Of a stretch of 64,000 bases of DNA, positions 5,063-57,710 are shown in pieces; the stretch's first letter is position 1; every line of letters starts with the position of its first letter. The notes below the pieces were generated by a model. That model saw nothing but the letters and a program-made list of their open reading frames with translations, ran no database searches and had not been told where the DNA came from. Made by a program: the position numbers and the translations under genes. Source of the stretch: Owenia fusiformis (taxonomy: Eukaryota > Annelida > Polychaeta > Sabellida > Oweniidae); contig CAIIXF020000002.1 of NCBI GenBank assembly GCA_903813345.2, positions 6,315,772-6,379,771 of the forward strand. Direction: 5' to 3'.

Positions 5063-5205
5063 TCTCTCTAAAATTTGAATGAACCGCCTGATTTTCTTGG
5101 ATTTCTTTACAATTTAGAGTGTTAACTATATGCCTATGTAAATCATTCCTTGCTAATTCCACTCTTTTCCACTCTTATTTTCCATTTCAAAACATGATCA
5201 CCATG
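5063..5205 (+). repeat. R1 repeat, copy 1
   Basis: R1 is recognised by ctctctaaaatttgaat, then tacaatttagagtgttaact, tactttattccttgct, ccactcttttccactct and aaaacatgacc. This copy has all blocks, with actcttattttcc in the penultimate one. Confidence 0.85.
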
Positions 5206-5504
5206 ACAGGGTCGTTCAGAGTCTCTGGCATTATTAATGGGGTTTTGATCATTGGAGTATAACATGGGGAGGGGAATCATTCATGTGTAGTAACATTAAT
5301 CTAACATGGTTGATTGCATGGTCAGCGTGTCACAACAATAATCAGAATTCCAAAAAGGCCATCATAGAAAAACTCAAAGAACTGTAAGGGATGCAAGGGG
5401 TCACCAGAAAATATGAATGTATATAGAGGGAGAGCCATTCTGATAAACCAGGTTCCATTTTTATCTAGAGCGAGGAGAGCAAGTACTTTCTTCAAAAGAT
5501 AGTA

Positions 5505-5688
5505 CAGTAAAACCTGTCTTATCCAAACACCCCTGGGACTGGCCAAAAGTGTTCAGATTGGCAGGTGTTCACATTTCAAGGTTTTTAACATTGAAGTCAA
5601 TGGCGGATTCAAAAATGGAACCAAAACTCATTTACATTGAGAAGTGTTCAGATTAGAGAGGTGTTCAGATATACAGATTTTCTTATAG
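5505..5688 (-). mobile_element. M1 MITE (Tc1/mariner-like ends)
   Basis: The left end TA|CAGTAAAACCTGTCT and right end atatacagattttcttatag are imperfect inverses. Inside are spaced gtgttca motifs (aagtgttcagatt, aggtgttcaca, aggtgttcagat). Confidence 0.72.
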
Positions 5689-6108
5689 AACATAGAGAAT
5701 GTGATAACCCAGTTTGATTTTGGTTTGATTCCCTCAGAAACTTCTTCACTTAAGATAAATTAAAGAATTCAAAATCATTAATTCTAAATCTTCAAGAGAG
5801 AAACTCAACAATACAAAATTGAAATACTGAATACACAAGAAAAAGGACATTACTCATTAGCGTTGACTCAAAACAGTTAATGAAATAAAAATTAACTATA
5901 AAGTGTCAAATCAAATTCATAAATAATTTTACAAGAGTAAATGATACACTACTTTATTGAACATTTTCTCATATCTGATTTAAAAATGAAATAAAATCCT
6001 CCAGGAACTTTATAATTGGAGAGATGTGTAATTAAGAGCAGACGACAGTGACCAGTACAACAGTAAACCCATCCGCAAATTTTCAATAATCATACCTACT
6101 TTACCCTA

Positions 6109-6250
6109 TTTCTTTAAAAAAATTGAATAAATTGTCTAATTTTCTTGCATTTCTATACAATTTAGAGTGTTAACTACATGTCTGTTTACTTTATTCCTTG
6201 CTAATTCCACTCTTTTTTAGTTTATTTTCCATTTTAAATCATGCCCATCG
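6109..6250 (+). repeat. R1 repeat, copy 2
   Basis: All blocks are present; the first reads ctttaaaaaaattgaataaa. Confidence 0.85.
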
Positions 6251-6408
6251 TGCTTTTTAACTCAAAGAGTAATGACAATCACAAACAATAACTGAAAAAT
6301 GAGGTAGAATATGCATCACCTAAATGAGGTGTGAGGTCAAAGGTTGCTAAATGAGGCGGTTACTGTATAGTGAGGTCAGAAGTTTCCACCTGACTGATTT
6401 CTTAATAG

Positions 6409-6505
6409 AAGTCTTGCATGGGGTTATTTGTCTTGCATGAGGTTATTTGTCTTGCATGGGGTTATTTGTCTTGCATATGGTTATTTGTCTTGCATGGGGT
6501 TATTT
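6409..6505. repeat. 19-bp minisatellite, 5 copies
   Basis: gtcttgcatggggttattt is repeated five times with one or two changes per unit. Confidence 0.9.
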
Positions 6506-6867
6506 CATTATGACCAATTATACTCTTATATGTTCCCATCTAACTGTTCTTTATACCTTTTGGTCTTTTCCCCTTTGGGATTTGCATATACACATCTATG
6601 ACTGGCAGACATTAAAAAAACATCAAAGGAAGGGGAGGGTCACTCAAGGCAGTTTTGATTGGTTTTATTAAACAGCATTCAGATGTGATTAATTGAAAAA
6701 CAGACAATTAATCAGAAAAATGTACTTTGCAATCATCTATCCTGCCCCACTTAATAGCCCCATTTTACACGAGCAAGCCTGGCTGACAATATTTACAATA
6801 AAGATGGCACTGATAATGCCAGAATGAATTTCTTGAACTGAGTTCTAGTATACAACACATACACAGA

Positions 6868-7065
6868 CAGTAAAACCTGTATATCGAAACACATCTCTAA
6901 TCCAAACACGTCACATGTGAACACGTCACATCTTGGTCCCAAATTTGTAATCTTCCATTGACTCACATGTTAAGAAACCTTGAAATATAAACACCTGTTA
7001 ATTTGCTAATATGAACACTTTTGGTCAGGATCAGGTGTTTAGATTAGACAGGTTTGATCATACTG
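6868..7065 (+). mobile_element. M1 MITE
   Basis: cagtaaaacctgtatatc at the left and gacaggtttgatcatactg at the right are inverted; TA follows the right end. The inner region keeps ccattgactcacatgttaag. Confidence 0.75.
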
Positions 7066-7321
7066 TATATATTTATGTATATGCCAGACATCTGTGTTTT
7101 GTTTTATCAGTGAGTTTATTTCCTCACAAGTTGAGTACAGAGAATATCTCCTATCAATTGCCTTTAAGGCTTTACAGGTAGTTTTAAGGTATAAAGGGAA
7201 GAATTCAAAAGGAAAACTGTCCAAATCTACTCTACACAAAAAAATCTTTATTTTGAATCCTAAAATTCAAGATACCGTATGTTAAACATAATTCAAGGTC
7301 TCTTTAAGGAACAAGCAACAG

Positions 7322-7352
7322 ACATTTTGTTCTAACAGATAGAACAAAATGT
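7322..7352. repeat. Perfect 13-bp hairpin
   Basis: acattttgttcta and tagaacaaaatgt are exact inverses separated by five bases (acaga). Confidence 0.85.
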
Positions 7353-8154
7353 TTGATCGAACAAGATAGAGATGGGATCTAAATATCAATCTAGGGTCAG
7401 TTGGGATGTCACCTCAAAAGTCCACTCATCACTCATCAAGAAACCATTTCTTTGATATTATCACAAAACCTGAAGGGACCCAGAAATTTCAATTTAGCTC
7501 TAAGTGAAACTGCTGTCCTGAAGATTCCTGTACTGTAGTTTTCACGATTCTTTAGTATTTTACTGCCTTATGAAATCAAGGAACAGGGAATCATGTCAAT
7601 TAAGAATTGTCAATTTGAGACAGGTAAAATTCATGAATCTGACCTAATTAGCAAATTACAGCAGAATTAACATAAAATGAAACTAACTTTATTTACAGTA
7701 CGTATGTTTGGTATATCATCTCTCTAATATAGTAAAGCACTGAATCCAATGGAATTAACAGGAGGTATCCAAGCTTAAAATTATGCAAGATTAAGTCAGA
7801 TAATTAAAAGAAATTAGATTCGATTTTCTTTTGTTTCTAAGACAGGCATTGAATTTAATACAATCCATGCATATCATTTAGTAGAAGGGGTCTATCAAAG
7901 ATTGAGAGATGAGACTATCAAAGAAAGAATCTCCGATTTTCTGTCACAGTGTAGCGTACCATGAAACAAATGATGCTCAATAATTCTTAAATTCTTTCAT
8001 CTTCGTTGCAATCTGAATGAATAAAGTCAAAAGTTCATATTTGGAAATTACTCCCCTAAAAATGATATTTTCTGGACCTTTTGCCAAGCTATCATGGGCA
8101 AATTATTACCCATCCCTAAAGTCCTAGGCATGGATTTATGCCTAGAGTCAATGT

Positions 8155-8284
8155 ATTTTTCTTTAAAATTTGAATGAATTTTCTTGCATTTCTATACAAT
8201 TAGAGTATTTATAACATGTCTCTTTATTTATTCCTTGCTGTTTCCACTCGTTTCCTCTCTATTTTTGCACTTTAAAATGACCGA
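8155..8284 (+). repeat. R1 repeat, copy 3
   Basis: It lacks about 11 bp after ttgaatgaa and ends ctttaaaatgaccgat. Confidence 0.82.
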
Positions 8285-9885: not shown

Positions 9886-10585
9886 AATCTTGTCACTTTG
9901 GGAAGTCAAGAGGTTTAAGAGATGTACATTCCTTCACATAAGTTTGGCAACTGATTTAGTCTCATCCAATCAGATGAGGTCACATTATTACTTGCATAAA
10001 AGTCATGCAGGATTTTGTGCCTGTGTAACCCTCAAAAATCCTAAGTTACTCAGCTTTTTTATCAAAATGCTTTGAGTAATTAAACCTACATTGTAACTCT
10101 AGCCTGTGCCTACTAGAATCATTGATGTATTCTCTCTCGGGCTCAAGAAGCTAAAGCCCTGTTACAAATTGCTATTAACAATGAAACACTATTAAGGACA
10201 TGCTTACTTAACTCTTAATCTCCAAGATATTTGATACATCCATCCAGTGCAAGGGGCTTATATTATGAGATAGACTTATCAAGCGTTGCATCGCAGGCAA
10301 ATGGGAATAAAGTGAACAATTACAAATAATCCCAAAAATTTTCATCTTTATAACAAGGTAACATGTCATAGCATGAGAGGTATACTATACCAGGGGATTT
10401 CATATTCCATACAGTTGACCTCATGAGAGGTGAACAATTATCTATGATATTTCAACTGTATAGCACAAAACATACCAGAGATTGCATTCAAATTTTACAA
10501 AGAAAATGTGAGAATATCCAAATGTCTAAATTGCAAGCAGGAGCAGGAGCTCAATAATATTTATGATTTGACTTTTTGAGACAGG

Positions 10586-11809: not shown

Positions 11810-11947
11810 GAAAGATGAGACTATCTATTTTCTATCAGTTTCTATTTACCAATAATTATCATTTGTTTGCAGTACAGATATCTTTATCAATTTCCACCTA
11901 AAATGTGGACATATTGACTGGACTTCTGGCATGATTTTTATAAGAGT

Positions 11948-12027
11948 GTTGAATTCATGTCTGTTTACTTTATTCCTTGCTAATTCCACTCTTTACCAAT
12001 GTATTTTCAATTTTAAAACATTCTCAT
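11948..12027 (+). repeat. R1 repeat, copy 4, 5' truncated
   Basis: It begins at catgtctgtttactttattc and continues to ttttaaaacattctcat; the first hairpin block is absent. Confidence 0.75.
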
Positions 12028-12513
12028 AAGTCATATCGATGAGATGACTCCTGTTGACCATATAAGTTGACAGGGAAAAGGTCTTCCTGAAGTATCGGAT
12101 GTTCCCAAATGCAGGATATTAAAGGAAATTGTTGCAGAAAGTTCAAATATTCAGTTTCAAAACCTTATAAAAGTCTACTTTACCTCAAAATGTATTTACA
12201 TTTTGCTACACTTCCCCCCATTGAAATAAATTCAGAGAGTTCGTCCTCAGATTATATCTCATAACTACTAAAAATCTGTCAAATGATATTGTGACAATAT
12301 TTAGATAACAACCGAGAAATAAGATCAATACAGAAGCAATTTTAAAAGGGTTATAATTACGAATTACAGAAAAAATTATGCATGAATTGAAATTATACTC
12401 TATGATGTTATTGTTAAGGATGATAGTAATTAACAAGTGAGTCACGCTCTATGGACGTCTTGTCACACAATTCGCCACCAAAAGATTTCTCCGATCCTTC
12501 ATATTTTCCTCAT

Positions 12514-12655
12514 TTCCTCTCTAAAATTTGAATGAACTACATAATTTTCTTGCATTTCTATACAATTTAGAGTGTTAACTACATGTCTGTTTATTTCATT
12601 CCTTGCTAATTTCACCATTTTCCATTCAATTTTGGAATTTAAAACACGGCCCTCA
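12514..12655 (+). repeat. R1 repeat, copy 5
   Basis: Complete; ccattttccattcaattttgg replaces the usual double ccactct block. Confidence 0.83.
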
Positions 12656-13035
12656 TGAAATATTTACGCAGGTTTTTGAATGAGCATTTTTATGATTGAT
12701 AGACATTTGAGACACTATGGGAAGCATAGCATTGATTGTTTCAGATTCTGAGAGCTCTAAGAAGTATGATTAAGAATAATTAAGATTTTGAATAACAGAG
12801 TTACATCAGTTCCTAATTACAGTTTTATATCAGTTTCTAATGGTCAGTCTTACATCAGGTACATTTTAGTTTCTAATTGACAGGTTGACCATATTTGGAA
12901 CAACTAATTCAGTTCTTTTAAACCTGAAGTGAGGATAAAGCACGAACAGCAACATTACATGTTACATCAATTTCCTGTGATTCTCTCTTTATGTTTTGTC
13001 TTCTTCACACAAACATTTTCACCACAACTTGTCTA

Positions 13036-13179
13036 TTTCTCTCTAAAATTTGAATGAAATGTTTGATTTTCTTATATTTCTGTACAATTTAGACCATTAT
13101 ATACATGTCTGTTTACTTTATTCCTTGCTGATTCCACTCTTTTCCACTTTATTTTTCTTTCTAAAAACATGATCATCAT
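13036..13179 (+). repeat. R1 repeat, copy 6
   Basis: Complete; it ends only 40 bp from the putative teneurin exon 3 donor (13218), making it the copy closest to a coding exon. Confidence 0.83.
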
Positions 13180-13218
13180 AAAGCTTTTCTAAAATTTAAA
13201 TTAATAAATATTACTTAC

Positions 13219-13548
13219 CTGGAGGAGGTGCGTGTGGATTAGGAATATACACAGTGCCCGATCCAGTCTGAACTAAATAATGGGGCTCAAAGTCCGTATC
13301 CATATCTCCGCTATTTATATCCTGGTATGTCCCTGTGCCGCTAAAATACGAGCCGGGCATTGATATGTTGCTACGCCGATCCATGCTTGGGTCATACTCG
13401 CAGTAGTTCCCTCGTTGTGATGGACCGAAGTGATTGAAGTTTCGTCGTTGTGGGGGTGGGGGAATGTGACTCGGCGGTGGAGGGTCGGGCGGATCTTCCG
13501 TAGGAGGTGGCGGTATTGGTGGGATAGGTGGCGCTACTGGTAGCGTGG
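13219..13548 (-). CDS. Ten-m: Teneurin, third coding exon (poly-proline and TGSGTVY region)
   Basis: This is a 330-base internal exon, phase 1 at both ends, with acceptor ttgtttgtattttcag and donor CCTCCAG|GTAAGT; it encodes 110 residues. The first third is proline-rich (PPIPPIPPPP, DPPPPSHIPPPP), corresponding to the poly-proline, SH3-binding part of teneurin cytoplasmic domains. The last third contains FEPHYLVQTGSGTVYIPNP, which aligns with the HFLFKTGSGTTPLF segment just before the membrane span in vertebrate teneurins; this is the strongest single piece of evidence for the family. The next exon should carry the basic/CSWKC juxtamembrane sequence and the membrane span, and I do not see it in bases 1-13218. 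It joins to exon 2 through a 36.7-kb intron without a frame change. Optional small exons between them cannot be excluded. Confidence 0.75.
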
Positions 13549-14408
13549 CTGAAAATACAAACAAAATTGATAATTACTAATTATATAATTATATTTAATT
13601 CGTATTCATTTGATTGATTATTCTTGATAGCTTAATCATACCCTGAACTCAGGTAGGAGTAAAGATAAAACTCTCTTTAAAAGAAACAAAATCAGAATAT
13701 TGAAGAGCCAGCCAAATAACTATGTTGTTAATTTAATATAACATTACAACAAAACATTTAGTAATTAATGCAATGTGCATTCCATTGTCTGGTGAGGAAA
13801 CCAGTCCATATCTAGATAACAGGCTTTCCTCATGTGTTTAAAGCAGATAATCACAGGGGGTCACAGACTGGATTCACAGAATGACTGCTTCCTAAATTTA
13901 GTCTTCTATGAAGCCCTTAACCCCCTCCTCAAGCTATATATATCTAGCCCACAGAATAGATGAATGGCGGGAGTCGGGAACTTGTAAAATTTAAGACAGG
14001 TGTGATGTATTCTATGTTTTGCATCCATACTATTTTTGCATCTATTTTATAGGTCTGCTGCATGCGTAATTTCACCACATATTTCTAAGATATGAAATTT
14101 TCCTTATATCAGAATCAAATCCTGTCTAACTTACTGCATTAATTGTCTTTAACAAAGAGTTTTTCCCATTTAAACTATCTGTTTTTATCCATGTATTTTC
14201 CACTTAAATATTCCATAAATATGAATTTTTCCTAATTTTTATCCCTCTCTGGCTCCTGCAAGGAACATCCATAAAGGATTATATTTTCCATATTTTACAT
14301 GTATTATCTTATTGCCTGGTTAATGCTTAAAAGAGCATTTCATGTAAAACCTGCAAACACTTAAGAACTTCCTAGAACTCGACATGATAAGTTCTTAAGT
14401 TTTTAGTA

Positions 14409-14648: not shown

Positions 14649-14962
14649 GAGCAGAAAAAGGCCAAAGGCTTACCACCAAACAATAATTGAGAATAGATAA
14701 TTATTAGCAAGCTTGGAGTTATTTCAATGAATTATTTGTACCTTTCACATATAAATTCTACATTGTTTTTCAGATTCTTTTTGGATTATGAATATCTATT
14801 AAAGTTTCTAAGCTTGGCTGAATTCAATCTGCTAATATTGATATAATATTTATTGAGTCAGACTGAGATATTGAACTGAACTAAATATTTTATATTTTCA
14901 TAAATCTGTTGTTACATCACATAAAATGTTCATTTTTTCCTAGACATGCCTGGATATAACTG

Positions 14963-15168
14963 CAGTGATCTCTCCAGGATTAAAGCAAGTGGGCACAGCA
15001 CCCACCTGAGATTTTGAAAAAAGACTTGCACCCGACTGAAAATTCATTTGCACCCACTTGAAAATGAGAAAAATCATGAAAAATAGGCATATTTTGACCA
15101 ATTTTGGTCTGAATTGTGCAAATGAGAATTTTGCACCCACCTGAGAGAAAATCCTGGGGAGATCAATG
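14963..15168 (+). mobile_element. M4 MITE, 206 bp
   Basis: The ends cagtgatctctccaggat and atcctggggagatcaatg are inverted repeats. AACTG directly precedes and follows the element, giving a 5-bp target duplication. Confidence 0.8.
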
Positions 15169-15229
15169 AACTGTATAATCTTGACAAACCATTATTTACA
15201 ATTCTCATTCTTTTCTATTTTAAACTATA

Positions 15230-16391: not shown

Positions 16392-16589
16392 AGTTTAAAA
16401 TAGTTTGGATGTGTTGAAGCCATGGAATACCCCCAAACTCTGCAACCAGGATTGGTAAAAAATGAAACTCATACAAGGCATGTTTGTTTATGTAGCTTTA
16501 CATCACGGCTTGTCACATCCTATTTCACTTTAAAAACCCACCTCAGAGATACCAGTGTAACTAATCCTGACCAGTCATGCCTTTCATGG

Positions 16590-16722
16590 TATTTCTCTGT
16601 AAAATTTGAATGAACTATATACAATTTAGAGTGTTAACTACATGTCTGTTTACTTTATTTCTCGCTGATTCCACTCTTTTCCACTCTTTTCCACTCTATT
16701 TTCAATTTCAAATCATGACCAA
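16590..16722 (+). repeat. R1 repeat, copy 7
   Basis: It lacks the gattttcttgcatttc block but triplicates the ccactctttt block. Confidence 0.82.
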
Positions 16723-18930: not shown

Positions 18931-19755
18931 TAATAAATCATCCATTCATTCATATAACAATTTATAACATATAGATGGCGCTTTGAGACTTAGATACATG
19001 CGCTGGTGAAGATATGCTTCAACTCATGCACCAACTCTTTCCAATTCATGATATTACATCACAGTATTATTTTTCAAGCCTTCTCTCTTGAAAATGAAAG
19101 TAACTGGATGAGTTTTGCATATATAGTTCAAAGGACCACACACATATATATTTTATTTCATGCACGTTTCCCTCCATTTCTATTTTAAAACAAAACACCC
19201 GATATATCCTTTAAATATTTTTTCATATCTTCACATCAGATTAAATTCCTTGTATATTATTTAATACCACTCTTCCATTGATTTGCATGTAAAATTATAG
19301 AAATAATCCTATTTGTGGGTTACTATAGTTTCATCAGATCGTCTATAGCAACGCATCAGTGAAAATCCACTAATAACTAACTAATAGCCTCAAAACTCCC
19401 ATGATGTAGAAATACTTTGTGAATTTCCACATCATCTTATTTTCATGAAGAGTAGATTTAGTCGTAAAATACACGTGTTTACGCAGAACATTCTATCCAG
19501 GATCATTAACGAAGACTATAAAAAGTTAAGAATTCCTATATTGCATGGATATGATGACATATCATTGTAAGAGAACAATTGGGCTTTGGAATCTTAAATT
19601 CACAAAATTTCTGTTTGTTGTATATTTATGTAATAAATGAATTTTAATGTAAGCGACATCTTTTACATATATAACTTATTTGTAATTGCAATTTGCGCAT
19701 GCTTTTCTCTAGTTCATATTGTACGTGTAGCAAGGATAGGAGTGGACAGCTTTTC

Positions 19756-19796: not shown

Positions 19797-20870
19797 GTCT
19801 TGTGTCTGTGTAACAATTGTTCACTTAGTCCATCTAAAATATGCTCATTAATGACATGTTCCACCATACTCATTGGAATTCATATACCATTCTCTACGCA
19901 ATAATCAGAGCCGATATGACAATAAACCATAATCCATCAGAATTTAATGATGTCTTCGGGCAATACATAAAAACATCCGATTCATGAGTGACCTAAAGTA
20001 TCACCAGTTCAACAGTTCAAATTTTTCAAATAAGCGCCAAATGACATGTCTTTTGTAGAATCTGCAATGATTACCGAGTACCAGTTTCGAGAATGTCAGA
20101 ACGGCATTCCTCGTCTTTTCACTCTGTACTGCACAATATTTTTATGTTGTTAGGTCAAATAAATGAATAAATGACTGTCATACCTCCTTTGGACCTCTCT
20201 TGTTTGATACCCAGAGGGGAATTATGGGAATACAACATCATTGACCAGTAAAACATCATTGACTTAAATAGCACTATTAATATTAGATAGCAACCAAACT
20301 GGACAAATAAATATTGACAGCGTCCACTAAAATATTGACGATTCACTATAATATTGACGCCTGTTTGTGTATAAATCAGGAAAGATCAAAGACCCACTGG
20401 ACCAAAAGTCCTGGTCATTTATGGTATTATAGTTTACAAAATTGTAGCTCAATGAATCAATAGACATGACCGGAACTGCGGGCAAGTTAAGAATTCAATC
20501 ATCTGATGCTTCTCCAAGGCAACAAGGCAAATAAAGCGATTGGTTCGGTCATTTTTGCATTTTCTATAATTCATCAATTCTTGTTTTAGAAAAAAATGGC
20601 TTCTAACATTTTACATCCTCTATTCCTTATCATTTCTTCAGTATTCTAAATCGCATTGAAGATCAAGCTGGTTACAAATGGCAACACAGTTATACTGAAT
20701 AGCAATCTCACTAAATGACGTCCTTAAAAATGTCCCAAGTGATCTATCTTGTGATCTATCTGCGAGTAATCCACCCATCTTCATTCCGATCACATCTCTC
20801 CTAAACTGATATTAAACTTTATATCCTTATCCAGGCCAAAATGTTCCCGAGGGTCATGCCTTTTGCAGGT

Positions 20871-21014
20871 TTTATCTCCCTAAAATTTGAAAGAACTACT
20901 TTCTTTTTTGGGATTTCTTTACAATTTATAGTGTTAACTACATGCCTGTTTACTTTATTCCTTCCTGATTCCACTCTTTTCCACTCTATTTTGCATTTTA
21001 AAACGACCATCATT
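20871..21014 (+). repeat. R1 repeat, copy 8
   Basis: Complete; the segment happens to be open over 67 codons on the plus strand. Confidence 0.83.
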
Positions 21015-24405: not shown

Positions 24406-24547
24406 TAACATTTACTGTAATTATTCTCAGATACTTCATAATTCTGCTAATATAAAGTTTCAGCACATATTCTCTCAAATAAATTTGAGAAGTTCAGCAT
24501 AAAGTTGTACATAAAAGATTCTATTATATTAATCATCATAATTATTA

Positions 24548-27821: not shown

Positions 27822-29410
27822 TATATAGGATCAATCAACAGATATCAACAAAATATTAATTATATCCGGGGACGACACATATGTCTAAAGTGGGGAGAAG
27901 TGTAGCCTCTGCTATAGAATAAATTGCATGTAAATGTGATAGACATAAACCAGACACCTGAAGCACTCATTAGCAAGTATCTTTTACAATACCAATGTAG
28001 CACTAATCCAATATTAATTGGACATTATCTACAGGGGATACAACTATAACACTATTATCAATGAGAGTCTGTATATGAGACGATTCGTTTGTCACGAAAC
28101 ACTCCATCGAGTTAGGAACATGAAAAGTATCGCCTAAATATCATCAAATATGCATGATTTTTTAGACTATTGAATATTGAACCAGACATTTATAAACAAT
28201 GGTGTTAACATGCAAATATAAGCTATCTAGTACTTTTGAATATAGGAAAAAATTCTGATTTTCTCATATTAAGTTCATGAAGTGTGTCTTTCTTTGTATT
28301 ATGATGCATGTACAGGGTATCATAACAAAGGTATGCTTCCAACCTGTCTTTATTAATAATGCTGGATTTAATATCATCTTAACTGATTTGTTTATAGAAA
28401 CATAAATAACATTATATCTGGGATATAATGCTCTTTATTAATAATTACATTGTACATCTTATGATTTAAATCAAGTCATCTCACGCATAAATAAGAATGA
28501 AATTCAACATGGTGGTCACGTACTGACTTTGACAGTAGAAAATATTATCAAATTAATGTGAAATTTTATGCATGGGAAATAGATCTACAAATGAAGGAAT
28601 ACCTGTAAATAAAATATAACTTTTTTTAATTGTTTAGGCATATTTTTTTCTATCAATTTAAACTTGGTTATTTTTTAATCATTTTTAAATATTCTTTCTC
28701 ATTTATCTGATGCTAGTCAGAATATGTCCACTTTGGAAATATATATTTCCCTCGGGATAAACTCAATATTCAAAACCTCCAAGTGCATAACCCTTATCCA
28801 TAGACAAATAATAGGTTTATATTTTACAATATCAACTTCATAAATCTTGCAATCATTTCAGACAAAGGACTCTCATAGAAAGTTCCCAATAATAACATCA
28901 TATTGACAGAGTACATTATAAAAAATAACAATATAAAAAACTTGTCAAAACAGTACATTATTAATTCATTTTGTAATATCGGGGAACTTGATAATTTCAA
29001 TAATTGATAGACGTTTTATATTTACCTGTCATTCAGCCGAACAATCATATGATTCTGTCTACGATATTGTTCGATTATACTCTCTACGATCCTACTAGAA
29101 TTGTAACTCTACGATCAAATAAGATCAATCGAACTATTTGATTTATCATATTGCGAGCGAAATTGTTGATTTGCAACCAATCATATTCTAGCTGTCAATT
29201 TTATCAATCAAACCAGTTCAAAAGATTTCACGAGTAGTGCATATTTTACGATATTCCTCTTTAATTTTGATTTCTTGAGTTGTTTGCATTTTTTATAATT
29301 TATAATGTCAACTAAATTATCTTCTGTAGCAGTTGTTGCCTCCTCACTTTTGATTAAATTTTTCATTAATTTTGATCTCACTTTATCTAAAATTCATGCC
29401 AATTCCTTGT

Positions 29411-29552
29411 TTTTCTCTCTAAAATTTGAATGAACTGTCTGATTTTCTTGCATTTCTATACAATTTAGAGTGTTGACTACATGCCTATCTAATTTATTCC
29501 TTGCTGATTCCACTCTTTTCCACTCTATTTTCCATTTTAAACCATGACCCCA
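29411..29552 (+). repeat. R1 repeat, copy 9
   Basis: Complete and close to the consensus. A diverged relative (ttcctctttaattttgatttc) lies just upstream at 29255-29390. Confidence 0.85.
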
Positions 29553-30329
29553 GGGATAGCGTCTCAGAGGATTCTATTCTAATGATAGCTGTTCAATATG
29601 ATTGCTTCCAATAATGACAAATACAACGATCAATATACCAAGAAATAATAAAACATTATCGAAATATTTTTCATTAATATGAAATCATCGCAGAAAAACA
29701 CCCGCAAATATATTCTATCGTGTTAAAGTAATGTAAATGCACAAAAATCAAATTGGCTCTAATACAATAACTGATGATAAATATATAAAGGATATGTATC
29801 GAAAACATAAATTGAGTTGACACCAAATTTTTTTCACAAAATGTCAGAAGGCCATGCCTCTTTAGGAAGATATGGCAGAAAATTCAGCATGTTTTGCATC
29901 AAACCCCCTTATCTAACTCCGATCCCTATTTTTAACATAGGAAATCTAGATAGGAAAGACAGGGGCCTCCAGACCAGATGCAATACTAGAGAAACCCATT
30001 AACACCTTATATTGGCAACTAAAAACATCAATTCATCTTACGTTCTGTAATCTCTTTTACCGGGAAATAAGTAAAAGTGATTCAAAATCAATAGAAATTT
30101 ATTCGATTTTTGACATAATAGAGCTTCGCAGAATATAAGTGGCAAATGTGAAATGAAAATCCTGTGGCTTACGATTCAATTTCCCTGCGAAGAACTTGAA
30201 TAATTCAATAGATTTCTTGCTAAATGATTACAAATTAGTTTTTTAGATGGGAGAAGAAGTGTAAGGTTAGATTAATGTTGGTTTAGAGACTGTGTCTCAA
30301 TTTTCTTTCTGGACATGCTTATTTTGCTC

Positions 30330-30472
30330 GATTTCTCTCAAAAATTTGAATCAACTATCTGATTTTCTTGCATTTCTTTACAATTTAGAGTGTTAACTAC
30401 ATGCCTGTTTACTTTATTCCTTGCTGATTCCACTCCTTTCCACTCTAAATTCCAATCAAAAATATGACTATT
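30330..30472 (+). repeat. R1 repeat, copy 10
   Basis: Complete; followed by attttttcttatgggttt, which shows the 3' extension of the family. Confidence 0.84.
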
Positions 30473-32080
30473 TTTTCTTATGGGTTTAATTCATTCTAAT
30501 GAAATAGCATCTCAAATGTGATCTAATGTCCAGATCAATGACCAATTCCCGAAAACACTAAAATTGAAAATGACATCTCAAGGACGCTAACTGACCCAGA
30601 TTCTGACCGCAAACTCAGATGATTTTAAAATCGTAATTGACAACGGGAGATATTTATGCCTCACTGCATGATACCAAACAATCCAGTTCTGATAAATAAC
30701 TATAAAATAAATAAATGTAATACTCTACCGCTACCCTTTTCAATCGTTTGGTTTCAATACTTGAGAAAGCGTCATCTATACTCTTTAATTTAGCCTTAAC
30801 CAATCAGATTGGATGGATCAAAATCAAGCCACCCAATCAGAGCTATATCGCTGCATTTTCTACCTCAATAAGTAACTGGTATTCCTTTCATATTCAAATG
30901 TCCATAAAAGGCAATGACAGATTCATTTTAGATCGTTAAGATCCACAAGCATCTAAACTGCAAAATTATATATTTTAGTCAGAGCGAAGTTATTAGTAAT
31001 TACTCCTATCCCACGGGAATCAACGTAAAACCTTGAGTACATTAAACTACAAACCTGTACTACATTCATCATATTTCATTACACATTCAATTACATAAAA
31101 AAATAAATTGTATTTTCTAACGAAACCTGCATTGATCTCCATTGAAAATTATAACCTTCCAAACCTATTACATTGTTCATATGAAATTCTCAAGTTTATA
31201 ATGCATTTCCCTCGAATGAAATACGTCCCTTGAATAAAATTCAATTGTCTAACAATTGTTGCCGTTTTCTCAAAGAATTGGAGAATATGTATGATTTTTA
31301 GGGATTTTAATACAATTTAGAATCCATATGTTATGTTAGACCTTCAAAATATGTGTCAGGTCGTTAAGAATTGTTTATCTTTAGCGATTAAAAAACTTAT
31401 CACGATTAAATCTTACCAAGGGAGGGGTATTTATTCTGTCTGCTAATTTCTTTATTGATTTAACATGGGGAAAGATATACATGCAATCCCGGGATCAATA
31501 TAATAAATTACAAGGTACATCTAGCTAAATATATATCATAACCCACTTCAATCTTGTACAATTGATACTAATTTCTATGAATATGATTGAATACTGTTGC
31601 AAAATGAGAGTTGGTGATCATCTACTGATTTCGGTCACATTCTGCATTGCATGAATATACATATAAGCTCTTGTTTTTAAATGGGACACCCCACAGTGAC
31701 CAGGCTATCGATATTTACTTTTTGGCCAATACCCATACACTGTATGAACATTATTCAAAAACGTATCTCTAAAAATAAAACTTTTTTGAAAAGAGATCAT
31801 ATCCAAATGTACCGATATTCAGATCCTATTTTTTCACCAGGAGAATCATCCTCACTCTGATGGTCAGTAATAATAGCTATTCTCTGACTTGGATAGACAA
31901 ATCTACAGATAAGATGCTGATTACATTTAAAATGCACCCCCCCCCAAAAAAGTGTCAAAATAGTTGCCTTGAAGAGGAGTTTCAATTTCAACTTATTTTC
32001 AAAATTTCATACAAAATGAAATTGAATTACTGAAAATAGGAAGCTGCTGCTAGGAAAGTCAGAATTTGAAATTCCAAAAA

Positions 32081-40028: not shown

Positions 40029-40175
40029 GTCACATTTCAAAATTAAAATACAGCAAAAATAAGTGAAATCAGCAAGGAATAAAGTAAACAGGCATGTAGC
40101 CAATACTCTGAATTGCATAGAAACCCAAGAAAATGAAGCTGTTCAGTCAAATTTTACAGAGAAATTAGTGGAAAG
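40029..40175 (-). repeat. R1 repeat, copy 20 (inverted)
   Basis: agcaaggaataaagtaaacagg, actctgaattgcatagaaac and caaattttacagagaaa read as the inverse of the family. Confidence 0.8.
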
Positions 40176-40306: not shown

Positions 40307-40444
40307 GTCTTAAAAAGTTAAAATTCAATCAAAATTAGTCAAATCAGTAAGAAATAAACTATACACACGTGAAGTAAAAACTCTTAATTGTGTCAAACTG
40401 TAAGAAAATACAGCAGTTTATTCAAATTTTAAAAGAGAAAAAGA
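40307..40444 (-). repeat. R1 repeat, copy 21 (inverted)
   Basis: agtaagaaataaactatacac, actcttaattgtgtcaaac and tcaaattttaaaagagaaa; 130 bp from copy 20 in the same orientation. Confidence 0.72.
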
Positions 40445-40694
40445 GTGGAAAGAGAACTAAGCAGACGGCAAATTTCAAGCGTGAGAGTATGCTCTGACGT
40501 AATGTATCAAGTAAGTATCTCATAGGACACTGATTTCATTCCATACATCAAATGTACTTACAGCTAATTATTTGAGAAGAATGTCATGGTACTCAAGGTT
40601 TAATAGCAAAATTAAGTAGAAAAAGATCAGTTATAAGAGAATAAGTAGTTGTTCATCCAGGGATTCTGACTCAAAGCGTACACACGTCACATCT

Positions 40695-43565: not shown

Positions 43566-43752
43566 ATATTTATTAAACAATATACTATTATGATTATAGC
43601 CATATATGTTATGAAATGATAAAATATGGGGATTGTTATTGGATTGTCTTATTAATAAGGACCTATTATATGGACAGGTCTATTATATCATACAAGGCTG
43701 ATGTATACCTATCCTAGACTAAAATTTTCATACTTACCTCACTGATTTCATA

Positions 43753-43897
43753 CTTTTTCTCATAAAAATTTGAATAAACTACTGCAGATTTTGGCATTTC
43801 TATACAATTTAGAGTGTTGTCTATATGGCTATGTATTTTATTCCTTGCTGATTTCCACTCTTTTTCACTCTATTTTGCATTTGAAAACATGACCAAC
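43753..43897 (+). repeat. R1 repeat, copy 11
   Basis: Complete, with tctcataaaaatttg at the start and tttccactctttttcactct near the end. Confidence 0.83.
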
Positions 43898-44222
43898 ATG
43901 GAATTTTTCTGGTTTCTGTATGCATTTGTATTAATAACCAAGATATAATGTCATTGTGTATTTACCCATCAAATGCCAGCACTGATTAGTAAACACATTA
44001 ATCCAAGTACAAAAAAAAACAAATTGTAAATACAGGACATAATACCCTTACATAAGTTAATATCACAATATAGCATGCAATTTAGCAGTTTCCTTGACAA
44101 CCATTCATTTAATGCTATTTTCTCATTTCTGACACAGAGGAAATACCTAAAACAACCAGATCCAGATGTTAACATGAACAAATTATTCTGCAAGATCACT
44201 GTGGTCACGCCATACTTCACTC

Positions 44223-44365
44223 ATTTTCTCGAAATAATTTGATTGAAGCCACATATTTTTTTGCATTTCTTTACAATTTAATATCTTATCTTTAGCTCTA
44301 TGTACTTTATTCCTTGGTATTTCCTCCCCTTTGGGGAGAAATCCCCATTAAAAAACATGAACCAT
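44223..44365 (+). repeat. R1 repeat, copy 12, diverged
   Basis: ctcgaaataatttgattgaa, cattttctttacaattta-like middle and tactttattccttgg remain; the ccactct block has become cctcccctttgggg. Confidence 0.7.
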
Positions 44366-44977
44366 ATATTTTTAAAGCACCTACCTTCAGTGTAAATATT
44401 TTCAGTCATCATGAAAAGGTCTTATCCAATACTTGTAAATTACTAATTCAGGGACAGAATTCAGACAAATCGCCACATTCTATCGCCATTTTAACAGTTC
44501 CATGCTGTAAAACACATTAACAGTTTCAGCCTTCGCATCAAAGACGATGTTGTATCTTAAATTCTTTCACATAAAAAGCCGCTAGCCTTTCAAAGCGATC
44601 TTCTATTCCCAGAATGAGTTTCAGTCACTCTACAAATCAATAGTTTATTATCGTGCATTCTGCTTTGCTCACTCGGAGTAACTGAGCGGCATTCTGATTG
44701 CCTCGGACTGTATTAGTTGCCAAGAAGGCCGATCATCCTTATGATCATCCCTGACAAAAAATTACATCACATCATCAATGTTGTTAATTTGCAAAATAAT
44801 TTTAATAATTTTATATATGGGACATTTTAATTTAATGAATTTGATTATTCTTTGTATTGTTTTAGCATCCACTTATCTTTTCTCGTCTTTTTCAAGGAAA
44901 GCATGACATCCATGAAATAGAGAGGAAAGGGTTTCCCCTGCAGGATTTTTCTCTGCAGGTACAGCCTATTTCACACT

Positions 44978-45117
44978 TTTTCTCTCTAAAATTTGAATAA
45001 ACTGTTTAATTTTCTTGCATTTCTATATGATTTAGAGTCTTCCCTCCATGCCTGTTTACTTTATTACTTGCTAATTCCACTCTTTTCTTGTTTATTTTCT
45101 ATTTAAAAAGATAACAA
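44978..45117 (+). repeat. R1 repeat, copy 13
   Basis: Complete; tatatgatttagagtcttcc replaces the core. Confidence 0.82.
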
Positions 45118-45405
45118 TGATGACATTTTTTCTTCTGGATGTCTCTCACCCTCTTAGATTGATTTAATCAATCACATCAAGATACAATACATTTCCATTA
45201 AAACAATTGTCTTTTAGCAGATTCAAAGAATAGACTAGTATCAGAAAGTGTTTAATCCATGCGATATTCTTGCTTCAAATCCTTTGATTGCATATGTATA
45301 CAAAGTCATTTATCATTTCCTGTCATTTTTTTTATTTTCTCTCCATTCATAATTGATCCTGTCTTATCCACGAAATCTGCCGTCTGCTCGAATGTTTATT
45401 CCTCC

Positions 45406-45542
45406 GATTTTCTCTTTAAAATTTGAATAAAGTGTCTGATATTTTTAAATATCTATATTCTCTGGAATGTTAACTTTGTGTATTTCAACTTTTTCCTCCC
45501 TTATTCCTCTAGTTTCCTTCACAGTTTCGATTTGTAAACAAT
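45406..45542 (+). repeat. R1 repeat, copy 14, diverged
   Basis: ctctttaaaatttgaataaagtg and ggaatgttaactttgtg are clear; the 3' half is poorly matched. Confidence 0.6.
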
Positions 45543-45992: not shown

Positions 45993-46300
45993 TCATAAAA
46001 ATCAGAAATCTGAAATTTTCGTTGATACTGATATTGTACATTCCATTGATATGCATTCTTATGTATCTGATCCATCTGTCTATAGTAAATGATTGTCTTT
46101 TAGTGATTTATTTATAATCCCCAATTGTTTTCTTGAAATAATAAAAAAAACATTATTGTATTGATAAGCTTGTGAAAATATTATATTTGCTCAAAATTAC
46201 GTGTTAATTAACTTTTTGTGTATTGTGTACCCAGAATTCAATAATCAATCTTCAGAAATCGACCCAAAAATTCCTCAACGATGTTTGAGATTTCTTCTGT

Positions 46301-46447
46301 TTTTTCTTTAAAATTTGATTGAAGTTATGAACATCTTTAGATATTTATGTAGTTTACAGTCTTGTCTTTATTCTTACTTAAACCTCTCTCACTAATCTAT
46401 CTTGTTTTAACATTATTTCGCGATTTAAAACACGAGCGTCATGACTT
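46301..46447 (+). repeat. R1 repeat, copy 15, diverged
   Basis: ttttttctttaaaatttgattg at the start and aaaacacgagcgtcatgac at the end; the middle is altered. Confidence 0.6.
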
Positions 46448-47704: not shown

Positions 47705-47718
47705 CCAGAAAATTATAT

Positions 47719-47760: not shown

Positions 47761-47764
47761 AATG

Positions 47765-47994: not shown

Positions 47995-48135
47995 AGTTCA
48001 TGTTTAAAAATGCAAAATAGAGTGGAAAAGAGTGGAATCAGCAAGGAATAAAATAAGCAGGAATATAGTCAACAAACTAAATTGTATAGAAATGCAAGAA
48101 AATCTAGTGTTTATTCAAATTTTTGAGAGAAAACG
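47995..48135 (-). repeat. R1 repeat, copy 22 (inverted)
   Basis: gcaaaatagagtggaaaagag, agcaaggaataaaataagc and tcaaatttttgagagaaa. Confidence 0.82.
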
Positions 48136-48414
48136 TGTAAAAGCTGGATGATCTGAAAAATTATTTAGACATGGACAACAATATAATCCTGCCGAGAAGG
48201 AAACCTTACAATTGTCTGTAATACAGGAGCATACATGTGTCTGGGAAGACTTGTATCAAGACATTCCCCTTTATTTATTTCACCTCCTTGAAGATTTGAT
48301 GTGTGTAACATGGGAATTAGAAGGGCCTAAAGTAAGACTAGATCAGACATATGGAAAATGGTATTTACTAATAATGGTAGAGACCTAAGCGTTATATGAA
48401 AATATTGGCCATAT

Positions 48415-48600: not shown

Positions 48601-48871
48601 ACATTTGAGCATGACATATCAACTATGACTAAAAAAAGATCTTCTGAAGCTAAAAAAGACTGTTTTCTTTAAACTGGTGATTAAGCCATGATGAAGATCC
48701 CCTTTCCCACAGGTGTTAAATATAGGATACCTAATATTTATATACACCCATGACTCATTTATAAGTAAATTCCCTCCAAGTAACTTTTTACCATTAATCC
48801 AGAAAGGATAATTAAAGTCCATTAGTAGCTAGTCAGACTAAAAAATCTCACAAACATCGCAGCTAATTTTC

Positions 48872-49015
48872 ATCAATTTCTCTAAATAATTTGAATAAAG
48901 TGTCTGATTTTTTTGAAGATCTATACAATTTGGAGTTTAAACTTTACACCCATGTATTTCATTAGTCGTTATTTTTCCTAGTTTTGCTGTAATTTCAAAA
49001 AGAAAACGACACCCA
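48872..49015 (+). repeat. R1 repeat, copy 16, diverged
   Basis: tttctctaaataatttgaata, tctatacaatttggagttta and aaaaagaaaacgacacc. Confidence 0.62.
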
Positions 49016-52182: not shown

Positions 52183-52322
52183 ATTTCTGTAATTTCCCTC
52201 AAAATTTCAATGCCATTTCTTGATATTTCTAAACAACTTTAAGTATAAATGTTACACCTATTGTGCTAATTCTTTGCTATTTCTCTATTTTCTCTCTAAT
52301 TTAAACAAAAAACATGAAATAA
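52183..52322 (+). repeat. R1 repeat, copy 17, diverged
   Basis: tttccctcaaaatttcaatg, gctaattctttgctatttc and aaaaaacatgaaat; it lies 120 bp before a complete copy in the same orientation. Confidence 0.6.
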
Positions 52323-52442
52323 GGTGATATTTTATAAACAGGTAAGTGACTGTTCTTACTTATCCTTCAGGACAACTTGATTGATTGTATTCAACATCCC
52401 ATTTCAAAATTTTCTCTGGATTGTCATGGCGATTTCTCACTT

Positions 52443-52587
52443 TATCTCTCTAAAATTTGAATAAACTGTCTAATTTTCTTGCATTTCTACACAATTCAAA
52501 GTATTAACTACATGTCTGAATATTTTATTTCTTGCTAATTCCACTCTTTTCCACTCTATTTTGCATTTTAAAACATGACCCCATGAC
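52443..52587 (+). repeat. R1 repeat, copy 18
   Basis: Complete; ends aaaacatgaccccatgac and is followed by attttcactccatggg. Confidence 0.85.
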
Positions 52588-53334
52588 ATTTTCACTCCAT
52601 GGGAGCATAAAGACCCATAGTTTTTTGTTCTCACATACCTTTTGATCTCAGTTTCTCTCTATTAAAGCTTTGTAAGTCGTATTGACGTCCAACAGCTAAA
52701 TCCATTTTCTACTTAATTAATCTTTTTTTCAATTTGTTGCTTATTGTATATCATTTTGTTATTGTATGTCATCGATAAAATATCAATACTTAGAGACGTA
52801 AACATTTGAAAGATTCATTTCATGAACATCCAGTTGCGGGGCTTTTAGGCGTCTGCTTGGTTCGAATGAATGAATGTAACTATCAAAGTATTCGGCTGTT
52901 TCTTAATCTTGATCTAATCAAATATCCCTTCAAAACAGATCAATGTTTTATCATTATCCAAAATGAAGGATTGCTCCAAAAGTTTTAAGAATACGTAAAT
53001 GAATAAAACACTTAAAAGCTACCAAATGTTGGTTAAATCACAAGTTTTCATTTATCTAATTAAGTTTTATTTGCTATAAGTAAAGCCTTTAGTAAGTTTT
53101 CAAAAAACTTGTGATACACTTTTTGGTAGGGGTGCTTCTAATCTAATATATCAGAAGTTCTGAGAAGATGTTTTGACTTACTTTAACATTACCAAGGTAA
53201 AACATACTCTTAATTGAAAAATGAGGATATATTTGATTACAAAATCAACATCTTGGTAAAATAAATCAGAAATCTTCACCAGAAACATGCTTGGCCCATG
53301 TACAAAACATCATCTGAATCATTCATCTTTTGCA

Positions 53335-53477
53335 TATTTTCTCTCTAAAATTTGAATAAACTGTTTAATTTTTGGGCATTTCTGTACAATTTAGAGTATT
53401 TACTACATGTTTGTATACTTTATTCCTTGCTGATTCCACTCTTTTTTACCGTATTTCACATTTCAAAACATGACCAT
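53335..53477 (+). repeat. R1 repeat, copy 19
   Basis: Complete; ttttttaccgtatttcac replaces the double ccactct block. Confidence 0.84.
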
Positions 53478-53680
53478 ATTGAGATTGTATTTTGTGGGTT
53501 GGGTAATATCTCGAGGTACTATGGGGTCAGCTGATACATTTATGGGTGGCTTAAACATGGATTTGAACCCATGATCCGTGATCTTTTTCAAGTTAATCTG
53601 AAGACAAACAGCTGGGACTTAAATGAAACACTATCAGATATACAATTGGGTGTGAGTCATGCTTTTCTGTGAAAAAGAGG

Positions 53681-53740
53681 AATTAACATGGAATAAACTA
53701 AATTAACATGGAATAAACTAAATTAACATGGAATAAACAG
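53681..53740. repeat. 20-bp tandem, 3 near-identical copies
   Basis: aattaacatggaataaacta starts at 53681, 53701 and 53721. Confidence 0.92.
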
Positions 53741-55218: not shown

Positions 55219-55414
55219 CTCGTAGCCAGGATTTGTCAAGGGGGGGTCACTTTTTGAAGAATTCCAAGGGGGGTTCACTTGTGACAATTTTTGGACGTAA
55301 ACACTTAAAATGTGCTCAGAATAGTGAAAAACTGCGTGATTTTGAAAGATTTTTTGGCCAGGGGGCTTCGCTCGAACCCATCAACCCCCCCCCCCCCCTT
55401 GGCTACAGGCCTGG
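55219..55414 (-). mobile_element. M3 repeat, copy 2 (inverted)
   Basis: It starts gactcgtagccaggatttgtca and ends with a 14-base C tract and cttggctacaggcctgg. It is inverted relative to the other two copies and carries extra bases near the C tract. Confidence 0.75.
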
Positions 55415-56269
55415 TAAATACCAACAAGAACTTATTCTTCAACAGAAAGCTTTATACCAAGGTATCTACCTGGATTCTTTGAAGAGAGAAGGAAACTGTT
55501 ACCTGATGATAAATCCTGACATTTATCTCACTGACTGGAATCCCTATTCATAACCCTTGCGTAAAATAAATGTGTCATGTTTCGATAAATGATTCTGTTT
55601 ATAATTTAAATCTTCTGATTATGTAATACTATATTTTTTTGTAAACGCTTTAGTGAATTAATCATTTATTTATATTGTTCATTGTTCATGCCTCTCTTTT
55701 CTGTACTAAGCATAAAAAAAATACGAGAAACAGTATGAAATTTTATTCAAGAGAAATTCTATATTCCAATTAGCCAACCTAGAAAGGTATTTTTGCCCAG
55801 AAAAAAATCACACTTTAATTATATTTTGTACAATTTCCATGAAAATATTTAGAAATCACTGCAAGATAAGAAGTGGTTATATCTGAATTCAATCTTCAAT
55901 CAAGAAATTCTTCATCGATTTCACTGTATTTCATAAAAGGCTATTTGATGAGGATCTTATTTTCAGGATAAAGCCCAGGATCAGTGTCAAGAAGATCAAA
56001 GAGGCGGCTGGGGTTGTATTCACAGAAAAGGAATTAGAGGTCATTAAAACACAATTAAAAGGTGATTGGAGAATATCTAACTTCCTCTTGTTGGATAAGA
56101 CCATTGACAAGTTGAATAGTACACACTTTACACGAACAACTGGTAATTGTATATTTCTTGTGGAAAATTGATAAAAATTGATACGTAAAAACCAATCAGA
56201 GATCCTTTCTATTTACTTAAAAAACTGTGAAATGTTTAAGAGCTGCATTGACATTAAAAACATTAATGA

Positions 56270-56368
56270 AATAAAACCTGTATATCAGAACACCTCTCTC
56301 ATCCGAACACCTCTCAATGTGAACACTTTTTGGCCCCATTTGAACTGCCATAATATATTACCATGTTA
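56270..56368 (+). mobile_element. M1 MITE fragment
   Basis: aaaacctgtatatcagaacac, ctctcatccgaacacctctc and atgtgaacactttttggcc are present; the right end is missing. Confidence 0.62.
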
Positions 56369-56428
56369 ATGAATAACTGGTGATTAAAACACTCTCTTTA
56401 AAGAAGCGAAGTGGAACAAATATAAATG

Positions 56429-56600
56429 CAGGGGTTTCACTAGAATTTCTCACAACAGGCTAAATGGATGAAAACAACAGGCAAAATTAATTGAAATCAC
56501 AATTTAACATGGAAAAGTTGAAAAGTCCCTAAAAACAACCTGGCAATTTTGTGAAAACAACTGGTGAAAATCGCCTGTTGCCTGCTGCTAATGAAACCCC
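56429..56600 (+). mobile_element. M6 MITE, copy 2
   Basis: It starts caggggtttcactagaatttc and ends gctaatgaaacccc. Internal gaaaatcgcctgttg is shared with 49361-49433. It lies just 3' of putative teneurin coding exon 1. Confidence 0.78.
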
Positions 56601-56646
56601 AAAAAGGGCATATACATGTATATAAGTTTTATGTACATTTACTTAC

Positions 56647-56855
56647 CTAAATCAGGTTTTGTATTGGTAGATGCATCTCGAACATCTTCATAAATATTAT
56701 CTCCCGTCCCATATCCCGACGGATCATCCTCACCCTCTGAGGAACTATAACCACAATGCCCTCTATTATGACCCCGAGGTTTCGGCGAGGGCTTCGTTAT
56801 TGATGTCTGTGGGTACGACATTGTGATGTCACAATACTATCTTTGTCTCATATTT
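56647..56855 (-). CDS. Ten-m: Teneurin, first coding exon (N-terminal cytoplasmic domain)
   Basis: This exon encodes the first 58 residues of a putative teneurin, a type II transmembrane adhesion receptor whose N-terminus faces the cytoplasm. Read on the minus strand, an acceptor (ttttacttgcag) is followed by 34 bases of 5' UTR, then ATG at 56821, and the exon ends at TTAG|GTAAGT in phase 1. The peptide starts MSYPQTSITKPSPKPRGHNR and carries a CGYSSSEGEDD patch that resembles the CRYTSSS...SED start of vertebrate teneurins. Because the ATG follows an acceptor, at least one non-coding exon should lie further right; I could not locate it. The teneurin call rests on all three exons together; this one alone would be weak. 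Start choice: it is the first ATG that stays open to the donor. An earlier ATG in the exon opens only a four-codon uORF. Confidence 0.68.
56837..56851 (-). promoter_or_regulatory. Short upstream ORF in the 5' UTR
   Basis: Between the acceptor and the main ATG, the minus strand reads ATG AGA CAA AGA TAG, a four-codon uORF ending 15 bases before the putative teneurin start. Short uORFs of this kind can reduce initiation at the main ATG. That role is inferred, and the uORF exists only if this acceptor is used. Confidence 0.4.
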
Positions 56856-57564
56856 CTGCAAGTAAAAATGGCAATATTATTACTTTTTTAAAAAGTTAAG
56901 AGTGAAGAAATAATATTACGGCTTACAAGTGCTGAATTATGTCTTTATCCATCAAGATATTTCATATGTTTTTTTAGAACAGTCTTTGTAGTTGTAGTTT
57001 GTAGTTTTTTGTACATTGTAGTGACTGATATTGAGTCAATAAAAGATATATATATGTTAAATTCCAAGATTTATAACAATCCATTTTTCTATATTTCTAC
57101 CAATGTCCAAGCTGCATGTTTACATAACTAAATCTTCTTTTTAAGTTCCTTCTTTCTTGTGTGAAAATTTCAAAATAACTGATAGTACCATATCCCATTA
57201 GAAGTACATGTGAAAAAAATCCCACAACGAGAATCGTATTGTTTTTATTCTTCCGCTTCATTTAACCAAAATCTTTGATGAAACTTTCATGGCGTCCTAG
57301 TTATAAGTATACCATTGTTATGCCATTCAGTAGAATGAGTCAGAACCATTCATGCATCAATACCAAGCAAGTACCCACTTCAATCCCATAATGCAAACAA
57401 TATAATCCCATAATGCAAATACATTAGCAGACGTGTTGAAACTTCAGGTAATTAATAACCGTTATATAAGAGTATCAATAACAGTGTAGTATGCTATTGT
57501 TCTAAGAATGGGCAATATTGATAATACTCCCAATAATTCATTAAACCAGTGTAAATGCCTCACA

Positions 57565-57710
57565 TGGGTCATGTTTAGAAATGCAAAATTTGGTGTGAAA
57601 GAGAGAAATTAGCAAGGAATAAAGTAAACAGGGATCTAGTTAACACTCTAAATTGTATAGAAATGCAAGATAATCAAACATTTCATTCAAATTTTACAGA
57701 GAAATTGAGT
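57565..57710 (-). repeat. R1 repeat, copy 23 (inverted)
   Basis: catgggtcatgtttagaaatg, agcaaggaataaagtaaac, actctaaattgtatagaaat and caaattttacagagaaat; it retains the catggg 3' extension. Confidence 0.83.

Follow-up and report, generated by a model that had tools for sequence, protein, structure and literature searches.

The repeat R1, found many times in a 64-kb stretch of Owenia fusiformis DNA (C2:6315772-6379771, 'the window' in what follows), is a real, genome-wide dispersed non-coding family with thousands of copies. We consider that it is probably an old, non-coding and non-autonomous DNA element of ~184 bp with a satellite-like core, which is regionally confined and perhaps homogenised as a patchwork. 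The original prediction, made from the window itself, had proposed either an undescribed repeat class or a conserved intronic or structural element that duplicates locally. This interpretation is partly supported. No description of R1 was seen among the hits of keyword searches in an open-access literature library, which does not cover the repeat catalogues Repbase and Dfam.

Copies were identified with an nhmmer profile seeded with eight copies and iterated at a cut-off of E<0.01. In the window it detects 28 matches, of which 24 are strong copies (39-130 bits; 20 on the plus and 4 on the minus strand) and four are weaker fragments. This is within one copy of the original count of 23 (19 plus, 4 minus). 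Of the further fragments suspected at that time, those at 31262 and 63820 are confirmed but there is nothing separate at 29255. The five sequence blocks that the copies were said to share all recur many times across the window and in the order given. The same family is recovered by independent repeat finding (repeats D2-D4, D6 and D9). We also searched the whole genome (498 Mb, with 12 contigs apparently carrying nearly all of it), as had been proposed. A 23-base block of the core has 197 exact occurrences and, with up to three mismatches, 2067 occurrences (985 forward and 1082 reverse, near balance by assembly strand) compared with none for the reversed control. Since the block finds only 15 matches in the window, where the profile finds 24 strong copies, the genome can fairly be extrapolated to contain several thousand copies. 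Block density in the window is ~56-fold above the genome average.

The element is longer than the 140-165 bp first estimated. Alignments of 62-85 copies with their flanks show that conservation extends past these limits and give the plan left end AAATGTCCGTCTGCTCATGCTTATTTCACTC, core, right end AAAACATGACCATCATGACATTTT, with a total length of ~184 bp. A complete R1 begins with the left end AAATGTCCGTCTGCTCATGC and finishes with the right end CATGACCATCATGACATTTT. The latter is also the conserved right-end motif, and that of the left end is CAAAATTTTC..GGTCATGCC. The catggg extension reported originally comes down to a weak GGG motif ~20 bp beyond CATGACC. With an exact left-end 19-mer, 20 loci were collected. 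In all 20 the R1 core lies directly downstream (57-117 bits) and the upstream sequence appears, by eye, unrelated between loci. Two loci, L166 and L174, carry a second, partial left-end motif just upstream. Terminal inverted repeats, said to be absent, do exist. They are imperfect, with agreement at 17 of 23 positions, and none of 20000 shuffles is as good. They are easily overlooked because the ends are decayed in most of the copies read.

Some copies contain from 2 to ~10 tandem core units of 105 bp each. These are head-to-tail arrays of a single unit, as in satellite DNA. For example, exact core matches are spaced by 104-105 bp in a run of six from C12:10463226 and in a run of five from C4:4240003. 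In the four arrays read at both ends (L003, L024, L069 and L070), a single left end precedes the units and a single right end follows them.

There is no consistent target duplication, as had been noted originally. The longest words shared by the left and right flanks of 70 copies are as expected from shuffling for lengths of no more than 8 bases, and in 20 end-selected copies, whose left edge is known, flank sharing is no better than in shuffled pairings. Neither set consistently shows the fixed-length target site duplication typical of a miniature inverted-repeat transposable element (MITE); the absence of a consistent duplication is as in HINEs and Helentrons. An A precedes AATG in 17 of the 20 end-selected copies, equivalent to a flanking T in the opposite orientation, with no empty site found. 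A simpler form of the test applied to a control MITE, D14, finds a 5-bp target duplication in 21 of the 22 copies (from 39 loci) that have both end motifs. D14 is similar to R1 in being non-coding and dispersed, with a length of ~210 bp and inverted ends. It has, however, sharp ends, 5-bp target duplications and a wide contig spread, and R1 differs in all three. This young family has two copies in the window (14954-15177 and 61524-61747; ends CAGTGATCTCCCCAG) and, judged from 40 hits scored out of 2849 candidates, is represented on eleven of the twelve large contigs. At L151:271-325 a D14 copy adjoins an R1 fragment (19 bits, model positions 49-102) and may have inserted into an older R1.

R1 is regionally confined and concentrated in few chromosome regions. 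A complete listing of two exact 34-mers of the core includes 149 matches at 129 places. Of these places, 70 are on C4 (8.3 expected) and 29 on C10 (9.7 expected), with none on C1, the largest chromosome (16.1 expected), or on C6 (10.6 expected). A neighbour within 100 kb is found for 69% of the places, compared with 5% for random placement. In the 144 kb around the teneurin gene discussed below there are 50 copies, and 53% of the gaps between them are shorter than 1 kb (33% expected; p=0.0004). For the control repeat D18, which has 2614 exact matches, the first 100 listed fall within 27 Mb of C1. Local duplication, as originally proposed, was rejected in the sense of copied spacers: of the spacers below 1.2 kb, no two separate ones match each other, and one repeats within itself.

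The ends and the core of R1 seem to vary independently. Since sampling with the 23-mer biases core conservation, 23-mer-chosen samples were also checked against the 144-kb region searched with the profile alone. In 47 copies not selected by pattern, identity to the reference is ~80-82% in the core and 67-70% in the ends, with random flank at 53-59%. The best-kept core in the window (copy 29406..29549) has 93-97% identity, with a left end of 48% and a right end of 44%. A sharp left edge is seen only in copies picked by the left-end motif. Among 70 copies, 52 pairs have similar cores (at least 92%); their outer ends are no more alike than those of distant pairs, while greater similarity is seen in the inner left end GTCATGCCTATT. 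Linkage disequilibrium (LD) falls to sampling noise beyond ~12 bp (94 of 125 copies used), a decay also expected from a star-like history with hypermutable sites. The control D14 is too young for this measurement (8 sites).

Preservation was also compared between parts of the element. Over 42 copies from the 144-kb region, preservation of the left 40 bp is negatively correlated with that of the right core (rho -0.42), and the two halves of the right core are positively correlated (rho +0.57); the former value becomes 0.08 once 79 core-selected copies are added. Copies with the exact left end (17 of the 20 loci, those passing filters) are better preserved than unselected copies at positions 22-65 and not at 90-162 (permutation p=0.003), so that their advantage reaches only ~65-90 bp inward. 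The two parts also differ in their map. The exact left-end 19-mer is found mostly on C10 (49 of 91, with 15 on C4) and the exact core mostly on C4 (Fisher p=4e-9). Short-tract copying (~20-90 bp) between neighbouring copies, by which C10 would have been swept to a common left end and C4 to a common core, is a tentative explanation to which we give a minor weight. Such gene conversion between nearby copies would decouple ends from core, but several old source lineages together with constraint on particular stretches could also do so. In addition, the pairwise identity of the control D18, selected with an exact 19-mer (19 of 20 loci used), falls from 1.00 to 0.63 away from the mer. D18 has deletion subfamilies, and fall-off alone is therefore not diagnostic. 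For this reason gene conversion is not adopted as a conclusion.

The explanation that we favour is as follows. The element has imperfect inverted terminal repeats (AAAATGTC-N6-..TCATG on both sides), and its internal segment can expand into short 105-bp arrays, so that one or more core units, core(n), are flanked by the left and the right end. Its spread was probably DNA-based, with the machinery acting in trans: either a transposase without a lasting target duplication or rolling-circle transposition of the Helitron/Helentron type. Insertion or survival is concentrated in certain chromosome regions, including the one with the teneurin gene. A rolling-circle source may be available because the genome contains Helitron-type Rep domains (58 matches), many of them in open frames of ~1500-3400 codons. 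Rep open frames of up to ~3400 codons occur in L199-L201 and other small contigs, and the three read hold 54-bp in-frame tandem repeats.

Several results weigh against this explanation. No autonomous partner with the ends of R1 was found, and no R1-like end is present in the three Helitron loci, of which the interior of the open frame was read. No empty site was found among 160 joined flanks compared with 274 kb; the four spanning hits were judged by their coordinates, without individual alignment, to be R1 array units or self-matches. Shared flank words of at least 10 bases occur in 3 of 70 copies where 0.4 are expected. Those of L016 and L057 are inside the element's own ends or far from its edge, but the 12-bp word of L067 is at the position of a target duplication and may be real. 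Finally, in 58 core-selected copies identity is 52-72% in the ends and 88-95% in the core. In a MITE the ends are as conserved as the interior and the edges are sharp; D14, with 94-100% identity up to sharp edges, shows the opposite pattern to R1.

Among published elements, the closest anatomy that we found belongs to HINEs whose central repeats are satellite-like (PMC7492417, PMC4067079). R1 could be such a HINE, a non-autonomous Helentron derivative like Cg_HINE of the Pacific oyster and DINE-1 of Drosophila. This is a narrower form of the explanation above, so that the two share part of their probability. According to these descriptions the general anatomy is the same: flanks, central tandem repeats of ~100-180 bp, inverted repeats near the ends and no target duplication (PMC7492417, PMC4067079). 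The long Rep open frames are also in its favour. Cg_HINE of Crassostrea gigas is described as flank, satellite-like repeats, flank, spread evenly over the chromosomes, and R1 resembles it in being non-autonomous, without target duplication, in both orientations and in genes for some copies (PMC7492417). However, the inverted repeats described for Cg_HINE are subterminal and of 11-12 bp (PMC7492417), and those of R1 are terminal and imperfect rather than subterminal and of 11-15 bp. R1 often has a single core unit (105 bp), no microsatellite was noticed in its left flank, and it is strongly clustered by chromosome, whereas no chromosome preference is described for the oyster HINEs (PMC7492417). 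The account of DINE-1/HINE Helentron derivatives also includes short, non-coding elements with inverted repeats and possible central repeats (PMC4067079). The defined subterminal inverted repeats, 3' palindrome and TT insertion described there are not demonstrated for R1, and the target analysis of DINE-1 is itself called inconclusive about target modification (PMC4067079). The right-end palindrome candidate of R1 (AAAACATG-accat-CATGacaTTTT, read by eye) is weak, and the R1 ends are unlinked to any autonomous element. HINE membership has a fairly low probability and is not claimed.

R1 might instead be primarily a 105-bp satellite present in euchromatin as single units and short arrays and homogenised by regional gene conversion like the Drosophila 1.688 satellite, its inverted ends being incidental. 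The arrays (up to ~10 units among those read), the regional clustering, the regional variants with left end and core on different chromosomes, and the loss of LD over so short a distance all agree with this. Against it, the dispersed copies that were read have mainly one fixed form with constant ends and not random unit phases, and the four arrays read at both ends are bounded by an R1 left end and an R1 right end. No long array turned up, and no search was aimed at long arrays. We consider this origin rather unlikely. In the Drosophila 1.688 satellite, as in R1, related euchromatic repeats are concentrated on one chromosome, but its units are of 359 bp and it is not known to have inverted ends, and nothing indicates that C4 is a sex chromosome.

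Two other published systems combine such features. Tetris, a foldback element of Drosophila virilis, is a DNA element whose internal tandem repeats are reported to feed satellite-like arrays; its ~220-bp repeats are inside its terminal inverted repeats, while the 105-bp unit of R1 is central and its inverted ends are ~23 bp (PMC4079207). The TCAST-like elements of Tribolium are described as dispersed satellite-like monomers and short arrays, many of them intronic and some in a DNA-transposon-like unit (PMC3411249). They differ in being related to a major pericentromeric satellite and, in that account, the euchromatic elements are on all chromosomes with no local or chromosome-level homogenisation (PMC3411249).

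We now return to strand. The minus strand encodes a teneurin YD-shell domain at C2:6252954-6255329, followed in order toward the window by coding stretches named by eye as NHL-, EGF- and transmembrane-like. The window is likely, though not proven, to contain the 5' part of this minus-strand gene, since the three putative minus-strand 5' exons in the window have no Pfam family match. Upstream of the transmembrane-like exon, at C2:6305099-6309880 (L075-L076), the minus strand carries a Ty3/gypsy-like element, recognised by eye, with two long open frames.

Since the gene is on the minus strand, plus copies of R1 are antisense to it, and the original prediction had pointed to this bias. Copies of more than 35 bits were counted, with arrays collapsed, in the window, in 60 kb of sequence to its 3' side and in 20 kb beyond its opposite edge. 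The bias is confirmed in the window (20:4 plus to minus, p=0.0015) but not in the rest of the gene, the ratio being 11:10 on the 3' side. In the 20 kb beyond the opposite edge, where the gene may or may not continue, it is 2:3, and over the 80 kb outside the window it is 13:13. Comparison of the window with the 3' part gives a Fisher p of 0.051, and the excess overall (33:17, p=0.033) is due wholly to the window. Lack of strand bias relative to genes had been named as an observation that would count against the original proposal; it is found for the rest of this gene, the one gene examined. Neighbours less than 1 kb apart are on the same strand in 15 of 26 cases. At C2:6293782-6298392 (L074-L075), nine R1 copies within 4.6 kb alternate strictly in strand (- + - + - + - + -). 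The strand bias of R1 does not follow the surrounding transcript, and the 20:4 skew is best explained by a local run together with the choice of window.

An alternative is that selection in genes orients R1: the pyrimidine-rich plus strand would provide cryptic 3' splice sites, and sense copies in introns would be purged. In addition to the skew of R1 in the window, a second strand-skewed family, D12 (CACCACCTGCCATTTGTTACAGA...), speaks for this. At 11 of 11 places (p=0.001) its orientation is plus, hence antisense to teneurin: nine in the window (8578, 14541, 15893, 22613, 24305, 42040, 45870, 51135 and 62593) and two less than 7 kb beyond its end (L077). A rule set by the transcript is nevertheless rejected for teneurin, and such selection is improbable, because the rule fails within one transcript, in the 3' part of which the R1 ratio is 11:10.

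A conserved functional or structured intronic element, to which the better conservation of the core than of the ends in unselected copies might point, is very hard to reconcile with thousands of copies, with the lack of an Rfam match in the window and with eight folds (four copies, both strands) of which none is significant (z +0.18 to -1.93), and structured RNA was accordingly rejected. As first suggested, R1 is not a standard short interspersed element (SINE) either: there is no tRNA or Rfam match in the window, no poly-A or simple-repeat tail in the listed ends and no consistent target duplication. A head derived from tRNA, 5S or 7SL RNA with an RNA polymerase III promoter was not found in these searches, the A and B boxes being sought by eye only.

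Table 1. R1 copies and fragments in the window, with the neighbouring putative exon. Coordinates are window positions and scores are nhmmer bits. TRF, Tandem Repeats Finder.
Feature	Position	Strand	Score or remark
R1 copy	5052..5197	+	117.0 bits
R1 copy	6101..6245	+	111.8 bits
R1 copy	8150..8280	+	74.6 bits
R1 fragment, left part	10451..10514	-	22.8 bits
R1 copy	11887..12021	+	78.3 bits
R1 copy	12506..12650	+	115.5 bits
R1 copy, ~40 bp from putative teneurin 5' coding exon	13032..13172	+	101.4 bits
Putative teneurin 5' coding exon	13214-13573	-	by eye; without Pfam match
R1 copy with short TTCCACTCTT triplication	16583..16720	+	87.5 bits; TRF 16669-16697
R1 copy, strongly diverged	19073..19193	+	39.5 bits
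R1 copy	20865..21005	+	107.6 bits
R1 copy, best-kept core of the window, two decayed ends	29406..29549	+	129.8 bits
R1 copy	30323..30467	+	119.8 bits
R1 fragment, left half	31262..31335	+	25.5 bits
R1 copy	40029..40173	-	102.6 bits
R1 copy, core diverged, left end CCGTCTGC retained	40310..40449	-	76.1 bits
R1 copy	43747..43894	+	112.9 bits
R1 copy	44216..44361	+	85.4 bits
R1 copy	44970..45114	+	105.1 bits
R1 copy, core diverged (60-83%), left end 92%	45400..45541	+	73.6 bits
R1 copy, old; GTATGGG after right end	46294..46437	+	50.9 bits
R1 copy	47997..48141	-	106.8 bits
R1 copy	48869..49012	+	78.1 bits
R1 copy, strongly diverged	52189..52317	+	39.6 bits
R1 copy	52434..52580	+	114.9 bits
R1 copy	53331..53475	+	116.1 bits
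Possible R1 fragment, weak	53663..53717	-	16.7 bits; overlaps 20-bp tandem repeat (TRF 53681-53738)
R1 copy	57567..57713	-	118.4 bits
R1 fragment	63827..63880	-	26.0 bits

The window also contains two other elements of note. Pieces of a hAT-type transposase are present on the plus strand at 35407-38235, with Dimer_Tnp_hAT above the cut-off and zf-C17orf113 and DUF4371 below it. A large, near-perfect palindromic element is located at 24546-27823. It has arms of 485, 321 and 286 nt with 98-99% identity and internal 172-bp tandem repeats.

The combination of a transposon-like repeat, a satellite core, the lack of a consistent target duplication and an uneven map makes R1 informative about how transposons and satellites are connected. 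It also serves as a caution, since a striking strand bias in one window can vanish in the rest of the same gene. If the patchwork is real, it would represent concerted evolution, bead by bead, of scattered single units without arrays. If regional conversion does decouple ends from core, the family would allow events of short-tract exchange among non-allelic sites to be counted in this genome.

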